Positions 12,188-18,936 of a stretch of DNA of 64,000 bases are shown one piece after another. The notes beneath the pieces are model-generated. The model worked only from the letters and a program-made list of their open reading frames with translations, had not been told where the DNA came from and made no database searches. The position numbers and the translations under genes were made by a program. Location: positions 1 through 64,000 of the forward strand of contig JAQXBM010000049.1 of NCBI GenBank assembly GCA_029252405.1. The letters run 5' to 3'. Source of the DNA: Crocinitomicaceae bacterium (lineage in GTDB: Bacteria > Bacteroidota > Bacteroidia > Flavobacteriales_D > Crocinitomicaceae). Every line of letters starts with the position of its first letter. The stretch's first letter is position 1.

Positions 12188-15100
12188 ATGTACATTATTT
12201 TTGATACCGAAACAACTGGTTTACCGAGGAATTGGAATGCACCAATAACCGATACGGATAACTGGCCACGCGTAATTCAAATGGCTTGGCAGCTGCACGA
12301 TGACATGGGGAAGCTCATCGAGCACAGAGATTTCCTGATCAAACCAGAAGGATTTGATATTCCTTACGATGCGGAGCAAATTCATGGTATTTCCACGGAG
12401 TTGGCTTTGGAACAAGGAATTGATCTTGTTGATGGGTTAAACGAGTTCAACGAAGCCTTAGCAAAAGCGAATTTCGTAGTTGGACAAAATATCAAGTTCG
12501 ATTTAAATGTTTGGGGCTGTGAATTCCATCGAATGGGAATTCAAACAACCATGAATGATTCAGCGATCCTTGATACCTGTACAGAGGATACCGCGAAGCT
12601 TTGTCAAATTCCCGGAGGACGTGGAGGAAAATTCAAACTTCCAACCTTAACGGAGTTACACGATTACTTATTCCAGCAACCTTTTGCTGAGGCTCACAAT
12701 GCCACTGCCGATGTAGAAGCGACAACGCGCTGTTTCTTCGAATTGTTGCGCCGAGGAGTATTTCGTCCAGAGCAACTGCAACAAGAGGAACGATACATTG
12801 CCGATTTTCAAGCCTTCAATCCTGCGCCAATTGGCACGATTGGACTGAAACATCTCAACCTCAAAGAAGAAAGTAAGAAAATTCGAGAGCAGCTTCCAGC
12901 AGAGGAGAGCGCTATTCCGACCGTTGATAAAAGCGAGGCGCAGAAGCGTTTGGATGCTTGTTCATTTGCTCACTTGCACAACCACTCACAGTTTACCATT
13001 CTTCAATCTACGAGTCAAGTGAAGTCGCTTGTGAACAAGTCAGTGGAGCTTGGAATGCGTGCAGTTGCCCTTACAGATACTGGAAACATGATGGCTGCCT
13101 TTCACTTCGAAAAAGCCATTTCAGGTCATAACAAAGATGTTCAAGCGAGAAGAAAGGAAGCGGAAGAGAGTGGAGAAGCATTTGACGAACAAGAATTAAT
13201 TCCAATTATTGGATGTGAATTCAACGTATGTCAAGACCTCACCAACAAATCCCAAAAGGACAATGGTTATCAGGTCGTTTTATTAGCAAAGAACAAAACA
13301 GGTTATCATAATTTGATCAAGCTTGCTTCTATTGCGTACACAGAAGGAATGTACTACGTTCCTAGAATTGACAAAGCCGCAATTGAGAAGCACAAAGAAG
13401 ATATTATCGTCTTGACTGGAAATCTCTATGGAGAAATAGCCAGCAAGATTCTAAACATAGGTGAAAAGCAAGCTGAAGAAGCTTTGGTTTGGTGGAAAGA
13501 GCAATTTGGTGATGATTTGTACATCGAATTGATGCGCCACGGGCAAGACAATGAAGATCGTGTAAACGAAACCCTGATTCGATTCTCACAGGCGCATGAA
13601 GTCAAGTTGGTTGCTACCAACAATACCTTCTACATCGATCGAAATGATTCTTCTGCACACGACGTATTACTCTGTGTGAAGGACAACGAACTCGTTTCAA
13701 CTCCGAAAGGACGAGGGCGTGGGTTTAGATACGGATTGGACAATGAGGAATACTACTTCAAATCGCAAGAAGAGATGAAGGAATTGTTCATGGACATCCC
13801 TGAAGCAATTGAGTCCATTGATGAAATAATTGATAAGTGTGAGCACTATGCGCTTGCACGCGATGTACTTTTGCCTGCTTTTGATATTCCCGAAGAATTT
13901 GTTTTTGCTGAGGATGGTGAAGACGGCGGAAAGCGCGGAGAGAACAAATACCTTAGACACATCACGTATGAAGGTGCAAAAAAGCGTTATGAAGAAATCA
14001 CACCAGAAATTGAAGAACGCTTAGATTTCGAACTTTCGGTTATTGAGAATACGGGGTATCCCGGGTACTTCTTGATTGTTGAGGATTTTATTCGTGCGGC
14101 ACGAGACATGGGTGTGTCAGTTGGTCCAGGTCGTGGATCGGCAGCGGGATCAGCAGTGGCATATTGCCTTTGGATTACCAATCTCGATCCCATCAAGTAC
14201 GATCTGCTTTTTGAGCGTTTCTTGAATCCTGATCGTGTTTCCATGCCCGATATTGATATTGATTTTGATGATGAAGGTCGTGGTGATGTAATCAAGTGGG
14301 TAATTGATAAATACGGCGCAAATCAGGTGGCACAGATCATTACCTACGGTACGATGGCAGCAAAATCGTCGATTCGAGATACTTCCCGTGTGATGGATTT
14401 ACCATTGGGAGATGCCGATCGCCTCGCGAAGTTGATTCCAGATATTTCCTTGAGCAAGTTGTTCGGTCTTTCAGAAAGTGCCCTGCGCGATAAATTGAAG
14501 AACAATACCGAAGACATTAATCGTGCGAACGAATTGAAAAGCATTGCGAAAGGAAGCGATTTAACCGCGCAAGTTTTGAATAAAGCGCGAGAACTTGAAG
14601 GCTCCGTCCGAAATACCGGAATTCATGCCTGTGGTGTAATTATTACGCCTGACGATATTACCAATTATGTTCCAGTTGCATTAGCGAAGGATTCAGATAT
14701 GTACTGTACGCAGTACGATAACTCCGTAGCGGAAGAGGCGGGGCTCCTCAAGATGGATTTCTTGGGGTTGAAAACATTGACCCTGATCAAACACGCTGTG
14801 AATAACGTGCGTGAACGACATGGAGTTGAACTCGATCCTGAAGTGTTTCCTATTGATGATGTTCCAACATACGAGCTCTTCCAGCGTGGAGAAACAGTTG
14901 GAATTTTCCAATATGAATCTGCCGGAATGCAGAAGTACATGAGGGAGTTGAAACCTACGGTATTTGCCGATCTCATTGCAATGAACGCCCTATACCGACC
15001 AGGTCCGTTGGAGTACATTCCATCGTTTATCCGAAGAAAACACGGAGACGAGGACATCATTTATGATTTAGATGCCTGCGAGGAATACCTGGGAGAAACA

Positions 15101-16555
15101 TACGGAATTACTGTCTACCAAGAGCAAGTAATGTTGCTTTCTCAGAAGTTAGCTGGATTTACGAAGGGTGAAGCGGATACCTTGAGAAAGGCAATGGGTA
15201 AGAAGCAGAAGCACGTACTGGATAAAATGAAGCCTGCGTTCATTGAGCGAGGTGGAGAACGAGGACATGATGCCGAACCGCTGGAGAAAATTTGGAAGGA
15301 TTGGGAAGCATTTGCATCGTACGCCTTCAACAAATCGCACTCGACGTGTTACGCTTGGATCGCTTATCAAACGGCTTATCTGAAAGCGAATTACCCTGCT
15401 GAATACATGGCATCCGTGTTGAGTAACAACATGAACGACATCAAGCAAGTGACCTTCTTTATGGAGGAATGTCGCCGAATGGGTGTTCCAGTTCTTGGGC
15501 CTGATGTAAATGAATCGAATTACCATTTCACCGTGAACAAAGAAGGAGCGATTCGCTTTGGATTAGGTGCGATTAAAGGATTAGGATCGGCTCCTGTGAA
15601 TGAAATCATTGAGAAAAGAGCGGAATCTGGGCCTTTTGTATCAGTATTTGACATGGCCAAAAGGGTAAACCTGCGTGTTTGTTCCAAAAAAGCATTTGAA
15701 AGTCTGGTGTACGGAGGAGGATTTGATTCTTTCCCGAATGCGCACAGAGCACAGTATCTCAAGGAAGACGGAAATGGCCGAACGTTTTTGGATAATCTCG
15801 TACGCTTTGGATCTGCTTTCCAAGACAGCGAGAACTCATCACAAGCATCCTTGTTTGGAGGAGATTCTGGTGCGAAATTGCCGGAGCCGACGATTCCAGA
15901 ATCGGAAGAGTGGGGCAACATTTATGCACTCAACAAGGAGAAAGAAGTGATTGGAATTTTCATTTCTGGACATCCGCTAGATGACTTTAGAATGGAAATC
16001 GAAGCATTTTGCTCTGGTAATGTAACCATGCTGAACGATATGAAGGCCAATGCGAACAAGGAAGTCCTCATCGCAGCAATTATTTCTGACGCTGAACATC
16101 GTTTCACTCGGAAAGGTGATCCTTTCGGAACGATTACCCTCGAAGATTACAACGATTCCTACAAGATTTTCCTTTGGAGAGAGAATTATTTGAAATACAA
16201 ACACTTCTTAAATCCAGGGACTTTCGTTTCGGTGAAAGGTAGAATTGAGGTGCCACCGAGAAGATCAGAATTGGAGTTCTCTATTCACTCGATCGATTTG
16301 CTCTCAAACTTGAAAGATGCAAAGGCGAACAGCTTGAATTTGAAAGTATCGATGAAGGCCTTGGATCAAATTATGATTACGGATTTAACGAAAATCTTCG
16401 ACCAGAATACAGGTACAATCCCAGTTCGATTCACCGTTTTTGATCCTTTGGATAACATCGAAGTGCACCTTCCTTCAAAATCTTTAAAGGTTGATTTGAC
16501 GACAGAATTGTTTAATGAATTACAGAAATTTGATCTAGATATCCAGATCAAATAG
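12188..16555 (+). CDS. dnaE: DNA polymerase III alpha subunit with N-terminal proofreading exonuclease
   Basis: This 1455-residue replicative polymerase is longer than E. coli DnaE (1160) because it carries an N-terminal DEDDh exonuclease domain (FDTETTGL at residues 5-12, then ADVEAT near 180). This is a known Bacteroidota arrangement. It is followed by a PHP domain (AHLHNHSQF, about 260), the polymerase palm (GPGRGSAAGSAVAY, and PDIDIDFDD at about 687), the helix-hairpin-helix/fingers region and an OB fold (about 1290-1370). It copies the chromosome as part of the holoenzyme. The 3' end overlaps the convergent next gene by 21 nt. Start ATG gives MYIIFDTETTG directly. Confidence 0.97.
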   Translation: MYIIFDTETTGLPRNWNAPITDTDNWPRVIQMAWQLHDDMGKLIEHRDFLIKPEGFDIPYDAEQIHGISTELALEQGIDLVDGLNEFNEALAKANFVVGQNIKFDLNVWGCEFHRMGIQTTMNDSAILDTCTEDTAKLCQIPGGRGGKFKLPTLTELHDYLFQQPFAEAHNATADVEATTRCFFELLRRGVFRPEQLQQEERYIADFQAFNPAPIGTIGLKHLNLKEESKKIREQLPAEESAIPTVDKSEAQKRLDACSFAHLHNHSQFTILQSTSQVKSLVNKSVELGMRAVALTDTGNMMAAFHFEKAISGHNKDVQARRKEAEESGEAFDEQELIPIIGCEFNVCQDLTNKSQKDNGYQVVLLAKNKTGYHNLIKLASIAYTEGMYYVPRIDKAAIEKHKEDIIVLTGNLYGEIASKILNIGEKQAEEALVWWKEQFGDDLYIELMRHGQDNEDRVNETLIRFSQAHEVKLVATNNTFYIDRNDSSAHDVLLCVKDNELVSTPKGRGRGFRYGLDNEEYYFKSQEEMKELFMDIPEAIESIDEIIDKCEHYALARDVLLPAFDIPEEFVFAEDGEDGGKRGENKYLRHITYEGAKKRYEEITPEIEERLDFELSVIENTGYPGYFLIVEDFIRAARDMGVSVGPGRGSAAGSAVAYCLWITNLDPIKYDLLFERFLNPDRVSMPDIDIDFDDEGRGDVIKWVIDKYGANQVAQIITYGTMAAKSSIRDTSRVMDLPLGDADRLAKLIPDISLSKLFGLSESALRDKLKNNTEDINRANELKSIAKGSDLTAQVLNKARELEGSVRNTGIHACGVIITPDDITNYVPVALAKDSDMYCTQYDNSVAEEAGLLKMDFLGLKTLTLIKHAVNNVRERHGVELDPEVFPIDDVPTYELFQRGETVGIFQYESAGMQKYMRELKPTVFADLIAMNALYRPGPLEYIPSFIRRKHGDEDIIYDLDACEEYLGETYGITVYQEQVMLLSQKLAGFTKGEADTLRKAMGKKQKHVLDKMKPAFIERGGERGHDAEPLEKIWKDWEAFASYAFNKSHSTCYAWIAYQTAYLKANYPAEYMASVLSNNMNDIKQVTFFMEECRRMGVPVLGPDVNESNYHFTVNKEGAIRFGLGAIKGLGSAPVNEIIEKRAESGPFVSVFDMAKRVNLRVCSKKAFESLVYGGGFDSFPNAHRAQYLKEDGNGRTFLDNLVRFGSAFQDSENSSQASLFGGDSGAKLPEPTIPESEEWGNIYALNKEKEVIGIFISGHPLDDFRMEIEAFCSGNVTMLNDMKANANKEVLIAAIISDAEHRFTRKGDPFGTITLEDYNDSYKIFLWRENYLKYKHFLNPGTFVSVKGRIEVPPRRSELEFSIHSIDLLSNLKDAKANSLNLKVSMKALDQIMITDLTKIFDQNTGTIPVRFTVFDPLDNIEVHLPSKSLKVDLTTELFNELQKFDLDIQIK

Positions 16556-17419: not shown

Positions 17420-17588
17420 GTACCAAAATTACACTGAAAGTCAGCACTTTTCGAGTCGGATGAAAATACTTTTGAATGTTGAATTGTTAATTCTCGATCG
17501 AACCTAGAAAAAAAAGTGAAACCTTTTGGCATGATTATCGTTTATATATGCACGGATCAATTATTAACACTTACAGGTTAAAACGAAG

Positions 17589-17616
17589 AGGTCTCGACGC
17601 AAGTCGGGACCTTTTT
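17589..17616 (+). terminator. Orphan Rho-independent terminator, possible small RNA end
   Basis: AGGTCTCGAC-GCAA-GTCGGGACCT has 10 bp with one G-T wobble and a GNRA-like tetraloop, followed by TTTTT. The closest plus-strand gene end is more than 1 kb upstream (dnaE), so it must end either a short local transcript or a long read-through antisense to the SirB1-like gene. Confidence 0.8.
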
Positions 17617-17702: not shown

Positions 17703-17770
17703 AATCGGAAAATCGGAAAATCGGAAAATCAGAACATCGGACAATCAGACAATCAGACAATCAATCGGAA
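17703..17770 (+). repeat. 8-bp tandem repeat array 1
   Basis: About eight copies of AATCGGAA and variants (AATCAGAA, CATCGGAC, AATCAGAC) run head to tail, broken once by a 4-bp AATC. The same unit forms a second array at 18428-18467. The period is not a multiple of three and no gene covers it. Confidence 0.9.
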
Positions 17771-17837: not shown

Positions 17838-18161
17838 ATGAAAGATCCAAAACTTGAACGATACGATGAGCTAGTTGCAAAGTGCAGCGGTTTCGAACGA
17901 AAAGGAAAAACTGTTCCATACACATCTGCGAACGGGCACATGTTTTCTTTTTTCAATAAAGCTGGAGAATTTGGGATTCGTTTTTCCAAGGAGGTTCAGG
18001 AAAAGTACATTGAGGAATTCGATTCGAGCTTATTCCACTCGCACAATTCAGTGATGAAAGGATAAGTGCTCATCCCCGAAAGCGTTTTTGCGGATGATAA
18101 CCTTATGCTCAAATTGTTGAATGAAAGTTACCAGTACGTGATGAGTCTTCCAGCAAAGTAA
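17838..18161 (+). pseudogene. TfoX N-terminal-like gene interrupted by an in-frame TAA
   Basis: The frame reads MKDPKLERYDELVAKCSG to SVMKG, meets TAA at 18063-18065, then continues in the same frame for 31 more codons (VLIPESVFADDNLML to VMSLPAK) to a second TAA. The two parts together match the length and layout of small TfoX N-terminal-domain proteins (about 107 residues), which typically have an aromatic residue followed by a VLVPE-like segment and end in SLP-K. The stop replaces that aromatic residue, most simply Tyr by one base change. It is either a recent nonsense mutation or a sequencing error. The two 8-bp arrays flank it. Confidence 0.7.
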
Positions 18162-18190: not shown

Positions 18191-18344
18191 TTGGGCGTTT
18201 CCCTCACATCCTCGCTCTCAAACTCGAACTCACTCTTCAACAAATCAACACACTCTCAAACTCGCCCTCACACTACTAATTCCGGGTCGGGCTATTCGTT
18301 CCTTTCTTTTTGAAAAAAGGAAATCCTCTGCTATCCCTAACACG
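18191..18344 (+). repeat. Interspersed palindromic repeat, copy B
   Basis: It shares with copy A (5493-5573) the blocks TTGGGCGTTT, CCGGGTCGGGCTATTCG, a central hairpin (TTCCTTTCTT / AAAAAGGAA) and TGCTATCCCTAACACG, in the same order. An extra 80 bases rich in CTCTCAAACTCG copies separate the first two blocks. Confidence 0.65.
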
Positions 18345-18427
18345 AACAATCGTTTTGGATTATTAGATTTTTGGAGAGCTTCACTTGGATCCTACTTTGG
18401 TTTCACCTTTATCATTAATCCTCGGGC

Positions 18428-18467
18428 AATCGGACAATCGGACAATCAGAAAATCAGAAAATCGACA
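18428..18467 (+). repeat. 8-bp tandem repeat array 2
   Basis: Five units are present: AATCGGAC twice, AATCAGAA twice, AATCGACA once. The array ends 49 nt before the next start codon, close to the 67-nt distance of array 1 from its downstream gene. Confidence 0.9.
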
Positions 18468-18516
18468 CTTGGCACGATATTCGTTATTCAACTATCAACA
18501 AAGAAATTCAACCAAT

Positions 18517-18936
18517 ATGAAAAGTTTAGTACTCGGAATAATGTTAGCATCGGTTTCCATGTCATTCGCGCAAAGCGATGGTGAATCGACTCATCAATTG
18601 AAGCAGCGCCTAAAGGCTAAGCAAATGATGAAAGTACAGCCAGCGTCAATTGAAGTTAATGACAAGGCTGAACCAATAACAGTGAAGTCGAGAAAAGAAG
18701 TTAAATCGTCCGTTGCGTCGGGAGTTATTCGCGTAAAAAACGGAACGCCATTCATCGACATTAAAACGGAGAATGTACATCGCAGAATGATGCCAGTAGA
18801 TTTTCCGAAAGCCATGGCGGTTGATGGACAAGAAATTCAATTCAGATACACAGTCTCTGATTTACCGCTTCCAAAACATGGAAAGTGTTCAATGGTGATC
18901 GATGTTTACGATATCGCCCTTGTGAAGAAAAGATAA
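18517..18936 (+). CDS. Small secreted protein of unknown function
   Basis: This is a 139-residue protein. ATG 18517 is chosen because a signal peptide starts there (MKSLVLGIMLASVSMSFAQ). The mature part has a Lys-rich helix (LKQRLKAKQMMKVQ) and then predicted beta-strands (GVIRVKNGTPFIDIKTE, GQEIQFRYTVSDLPLPKHGK, CSMVIDVYDIALVKKR). No family was recognised. It stands alone with a terminator about 100 nt downstream. Confidence 0.65.
   Translation: MKSLVLGIMLASVSMSFAQSDGESTHQLKQRLKAKQMMKVQPASIEVNDKAEPITVKSRKEVKSSVASGVIRVKNGTPFIDIKTENVHRRMMPVDFPKAMAVDGQEIQFRYTVSDLPLPKHGKCSMVIDVYDIALVKKR

Follow-up and report, generated by a model that had tools for sequence, protein, structure and literature searches.

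A TfoX_N-like gene with a single in-frame stop codon, probably a recent nonsense allele, in a Crocinitomicaceae bacterium

The DNA analysed here, referred to as the window, is a stretch of 64,000 nucleotides (contig JAQXBM010000049.1, assembly GCA_029252405.1) from a Crocinitomicaceae bacterium whose genus is at or near Fluviicola. The block of conserved gene order considered in this study starts with a dnaE-type DNA polymerase III alpha gene, recognized by Pfam (12188–16555, forward strand), followed on the reverse strand by a gene for a Transglut_core2 protein (PF13369; 16535–17419) that is open in the relatives compared. Downstream of this transglutaminase-like gene lies the interrupted TfoX-like gene (from 17838, forward strand), and then a gene for a 138-residue protein (18520–18936, forward strand) with a signal-peptide-like start, as read from its sequence, and no Pfam family. 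Two arrays of 8-bp repeats flank the TfoX-like gene, one of the AATCGGAA type upstream (17703–17763) and one of the TCGGACAA type downstream (18422–18464). Between the TfoX-like gene and the next gene, a match to the Flavo-1 RNA (RF01705) was observed on the reverse strand at 18281–18345, with an Rfam score of 44.3 bits for a gathering score of 42. The motif TTGGCAYGATWWTCGTT occurs twice in the genome of the window, on either side of the TfoX-like gene (17526–17615 and 18469–18485), and once or twice per genome in seven of 34 congeneric genomes, that of the window included. The first of these copies stands at the head of a short segment containing a terminator-like hairpin; this segment, conserved upstream of the transglutaminase-like gene in the seven congeners read, is possibly a small transcript.

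The reading frames of the window give an ORF of 75 codons, from the ATG at 17838 to a TAA at 18063–18065, corresponding to the N-terminal part of a TfoX_N-like protein. Beyond this TAA, which stands at codon 76, the unchanged frame reads VLIPESVFADDNLMLKLLNESYQYVMSLPAK up to a second TAA at 18159–18161. This post-stop frame (18066–18161, forward strand) supplies the 31 codons that complete the domain; of its 12 near-invariant residues 11 are retained, as are 36 of 40 in the head of the gene. Its first codon, directly after the stop, is a GTG and is therefore a conceivable restart codon. The first-pass annotation had described a TfoX-like gene broken by one in-frame stop without frameshift, and the alignments bear this out: the whole frame matches full-length relatives unshifted, with 63% identity to the G004 copy over query residues 1–106 (E 8.8e-42, the stop being scored as a mismatch) and 78% identity to the G040 copy over 103 residues. 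No second copy of the gene was found in the genome of the window, the sole other row of the search having an E value of 0.43.

In Pfam, both the read-through protein and its intact relatives match TfoX_N (PF04993) best, and these relatives are single-domain proteins of 107–115 residues. The read-through protein scores 23.7 bits, under the curated cut-off of 30.1, as does the intact G040 copy (24.1 bits), and we therefore call the family TfoX_N-like; G034, an intact and more distant relative, clears the cut-off with 31.5 bits. No Pfam family was found when the two halves of the window frame were searched separately, the NCBIfam search gave nothing but weak matches far under the cut-off, and the PDB search by sequence gave two chance-level rows only. 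A structure was then modelled for L038, the closest intact copy (Fluviicola sp. NORP8 in the named species collection), from 67 sequences and with a mean pLDDT of 91.9. The modelled fold is of the TfoX_N/YjbR type: its top match is 2od0 (VP1028; Z 10.6, rmsd 3.4 over 98 residues), which we take to be of the TfoX type, and it also matches the YjbR/MmcQ-like structures 3h9x (Z 9.6), 2a1v (Z 9.5) and 2fki (Z 7.3). The YjbR/MmcQ-like proteins (PF04237) thus share the fold, but they match less well in sequence than TfoX_N, with scores below the cut-off, and the genome of the window has a separate, open YjbR copy. Hence, the earlier proposal that the frame completes a TfoX N-terminal-like domain is upheld by fold comparison, whereas by sequence the assignment is weak. 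The model ends with a strand (residues 72–80), a short helix (82–85) and a helix (88–104). Residue 77 of the model corresponds to codon 76 of the window, and, in this model, the stop is inside the last strand and removes half a strand together with the C-terminal helix. The 75-residue product would thus be expected to fail to fold or work, leaving the strain null for this gene, and the premature stop is probably a null.

The TfoX-like gene was found in six of the 34 genomes of the genus, the genome of the window included. Orthologues ending at the same stop were looked for, and this was not the case. Three carriers (G004, G040 and G021) are of full length and have TAC or TAT at the position of the stop, and the same codons are found there in G047 and G017, although both are stopped elsewhere. 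In the named species collection, 77 of the best 80 of 338 relatives are stop-free in the matched stretch, the other three (L044, L071 and L093) having stops at other columns. These three were removed before alignment, and ten stop-free copies were omitted for thinning; in each of the 67 remaining rows the stop column holds a tyrosine, in agreement with the aromatic position proposed at first. Since this tyrosine is invariant, the protein does not normally end after 75 residues.

Across the genus, dnaE is commonly followed by the transglutaminase-like gene. Thirty loci around the transglutaminase-like gene were examined, up to 1.5 kb on each side, and the TfoX-like gene adjoins it in three only, i.e., in the window, G047 and G040. 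The small downstream gene is present without the TfoX-like gene in G013 (37% identity), G007 (24%) and G017 (23%). As for the other carriers (G004, G017 and G021), the dnaE/transglutaminase-like order was not found within 18 kb of their TfoX-like copies. In the protein tree, the window copy groups with that of G047 (100/94), and both group with L038 (100/97), which we take to be the same record as the G040 copy. Those of G004, G017 and G021 are placed apart from this group, surrounded mainly by sequences of other Bacteroidota, with some from Chloroflexota, Ignavibacteriota and Balneolota. At least two changes of the Fluviicola label are required by the well-supported branches; this tree has just 107 columns and many forks without resolution, G017 and G021 being long branches. 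The simplest history is a single insertion at the dnaE/transglutaminase-like locus in the ancestor of the three species, together with separate arrivals elsewhere, and the gene is best read as a mobile, horizontally spread accessory gene. The plasmid and phage collections gave no match at E 1e-5 and hence no vehicle for the transfer.

At this one locus, the gene is therefore found in three states in three sister species: open in G040, stopped at codon 76 in the window and stopped at codon 21 in G047. The G017 copy, at another locus, is interrupted at codons 3 and 20 and lacks an ATG at the usual start position. Three of the six copies found in the 34 genomes of the genus are thus broken; among the five carrier species other than that of the window, two are broken, at other codons. 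Over the whole family, six of 47 distinct copies have in-frame stops (G000, which is the genome of the window, G017, G047, G069, G461 and G587), that of G587 having a degraded N-terminal part as well. A TGA is listed for a seventh copy (G134), but the frame changes there. In another family of the order, G069 (L029, reverse strand) has a TAA at the stop column of the window, apparently a parallel nonsense change, and is the only other case of a TAA at this column among the relatives read. Three of the stopped copies have stops at neighbouring codons, i.e., 20 (TAA, L014 of G017), 21 (TGA, L016 of G047) and about 22 (TAG, L157 of G461), just before a conserved GKT motif; this was noticed post hoc and may be due to chance. 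Two MAGs were also observed to have a stopped and an open copy of the family on different contigs, one of Polaribacter (L071 stopped, L062 open) and one of Melioribacteraceae (L093 stopped, L084 open).

These frequencies were compared with those of DUF1801, for which two of 32 matches in the genus carry stops. The share of stopped copies in the genus is higher for the TfoX-like gene (three of six, p 0.02), DUF1801 being less patchy and the numbers small, while the family-wide share (6/47) is not above that of the same control (p 0.46). Among the best matches listed, which yield no rate, one stopped copy was found for YjbR in 395 genomes (G730) and, across 299 genomes of the order, one stopped row for DUF1801 (G216). 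The DUF1801 gene of G017 (L160) has two in-frame stops, and additional interrupted accessory genes, or errors, may therefore be present in this genome.

It had been suggested that the flanking repeat arrays could have promoted change at this site. Overlapping matches to the array pattern number 37 in G000, 11 in G040, one in G047 and zero in the other 31 genomes, and arrays of the AATCGGAA and AATCGGAC types are scattered elsewhere in the genome of the window too. They flank the TfoX-like gene in the window only, being absent from the locus in G040 and G047. The G047 copy is broken without them; arrays are therefore not needed for breakage, and both arrays of the window were rejected as its cause.

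Divergence between the two interrupted sister copies bears on the age of the breaks. For the window and G047, the TfoX-like gene has a pN of 0.087 and a saturated pS of 0.96 over 105 codons, and dnaE and the transglutaminase-like gene have pS values of 0.66 and 0.65, with a pN of 0.025 each; the higher pS of the TfoX-like gene may be small-sample noise. With dnaE as a floor for divergence, the correction gives about 1.6 changes per synonymous site. Even if all replacements had followed the death of the gene, the two copies together would have been dead for no more than about 6% of the time since they separated. Since replacement changes between the broken sisters are few and conserved residues are kept, both breaks look young. 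The ratio of replacement to synonymous changes is 0.19 in the tail and 0.05 in the head (codons 1–75); in open pairs, too, the tail evolves faster, as illustrated by G040 and G004 (0.46 in the tail and 0.28 in the head). Two changes could be assigned to the window lineage, neither of them in the tail, and eight more were unassignable; extra decay of the tail was not seen in these comparisons. The locus thus combines longer orthologues and an open stop column with one in-frame stop, no frameshift and little decay, as in a recent nonsense pseudogene. The very recent nonsense mutation put forward as one possibility in the first-pass annotation is retained as a recent one, at the grade of probable.

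We consider it likely that the TfoX_N-like gene of the window, an accessory gene spread by horizontal transfer, is a recent nonsense null allele. The gene would have been inserted once beside the transglutaminase-like gene in the ancestor of the window organism, G047 and G040. The window and G047 copies would then have evolved under long purifying selection before separate recent nonsense breaks, and loss would have recurred within the genus, either as the death of the gene or through null alleles segregating in populations. Other congeners being broken at different codons, repeated loss is therefore favoured over special translation. A comparison may be drawn with recent bacterial pseudogenes formed by independent nonsense mutation, such as the arginine decarboxylase gene of Chlamydia trachomatis, although the genus of the window organism is one of free-living bacteria, unlike that case. 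Both cases present one in-frame stop in an otherwise intact frame and separate breaks in relatives, as reported for Chlamydia (PMC2720952), whereas the gene described here is strongly constrained between two broken sisters. A further reading, which we regard as rather improbable, is that of a toggle, i.e., a gene strongly constrained while on, which it is sometimes advantageous to lose and which is kept in populations through repeated single-base nulls. On this view, newly arisen nonsense alleles of the gene would be present independently in sister species, with no second wave of decay, the alleles in question being those at codon 76 in the window, at codon 21 in G047 and, in a separate copy, at codon 20 in G017.

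Of the rival explanations, the most probable, although unlikely, is an error of base calling, assembly or strain mixing, the TfoX-like gene being intact in the organism. Many internal stops of public assemblies are reported to be errors, and internal stops are often assembly artefacts (PMC11017572). The undecayed appearance of the tail would fit such an error, and some of the relatives with stops are MAGs; among the named records (best 80 of 338), stopped copies number 3 of 43 under MAG titles and 0 of 37 under others (p 0.24). As a local control, the ORFs of the window between 5 and 32 kb were aligned to about 20 kb of G040 sequence and 17 kb of G047 sequence. The sole mid-gene stop, the real frames being chosen by judgement, was that of the TfoX-like copy of G047, and, in the reverse comparison, the sole mid-gene stop of the window was the TAA of its TfoX-like gene. 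Stop-bearing frames deemed non-coding by position were left out, namely, in G040, the overlong end of an ORF (27 kb ORF, alignment positions 16–17), in G047, an overlong start (18385 ORF, positions 3 and 10), and several G040 and G047 frames that are antisense to, inside or overrunning neighbouring genes. This lack of mid-gene stops in the compared neighbours of the window and G047 argues against error, as do the open YjbR and DUF1801 copies of the genome of the window. Besides, the same gene of 107 codons would have to be hit by an error in each of two sister assemblies. Decay of the whole region was ruled out from the same comparison of neighbours, on the same judgement.

It is very unlikely that the gene still works through reading of the TAA as sense, as had also been proposed, or through renewed initiation at the GTG next to it, so that the protein would be made whole or in two pieces. 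The frame and its conserved residues persist past the stop and the GTG follows it directly, which such translation would explain. However, the sisters do not conserve the stop, G047, G017 and G040 having a Tyr codon there, and the stops of the family differ in place and kind, all of TAA, TGA and TAG being used at various columns; read-through is therefore unlikely. In G069, the TAA at the same column is not followed by a GTG, and a restart at the GTG of the window would, according to the model, begin inside a strand. A conserved programmed stop was ruled out, being absent from G040, G047, G004, G017 and G021. Least probable of all is a functional 75-residue variant favoured in this lineage: it has a normal ATG start and the low ratio of codons 1–75 is near that of the neighbours, but it would lack the C-terminal elements of the modelled fold, and the break of G047 at codon 21 implies that no shared short form was kept.

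The recent null allele that we favour would be ordinary if taken alone, and the mildly surprising part is its recurrence. What is new here is one shared locus in three sister species, open in one and differently stopped in two. Among the papers searched, none contained both Fluviicola and TfoX, and none was on the TfoX-like gene by title or start of abstract. In practice, the 75-residue ORF should not be annotated as a normal protein. The case gains weight from a small and strongly constrained gene that is nevertheless broken at differing codons in half of the congeneric copies found, and it provides a small, testable example of an accessory gene lost repeatedly despite constraint.
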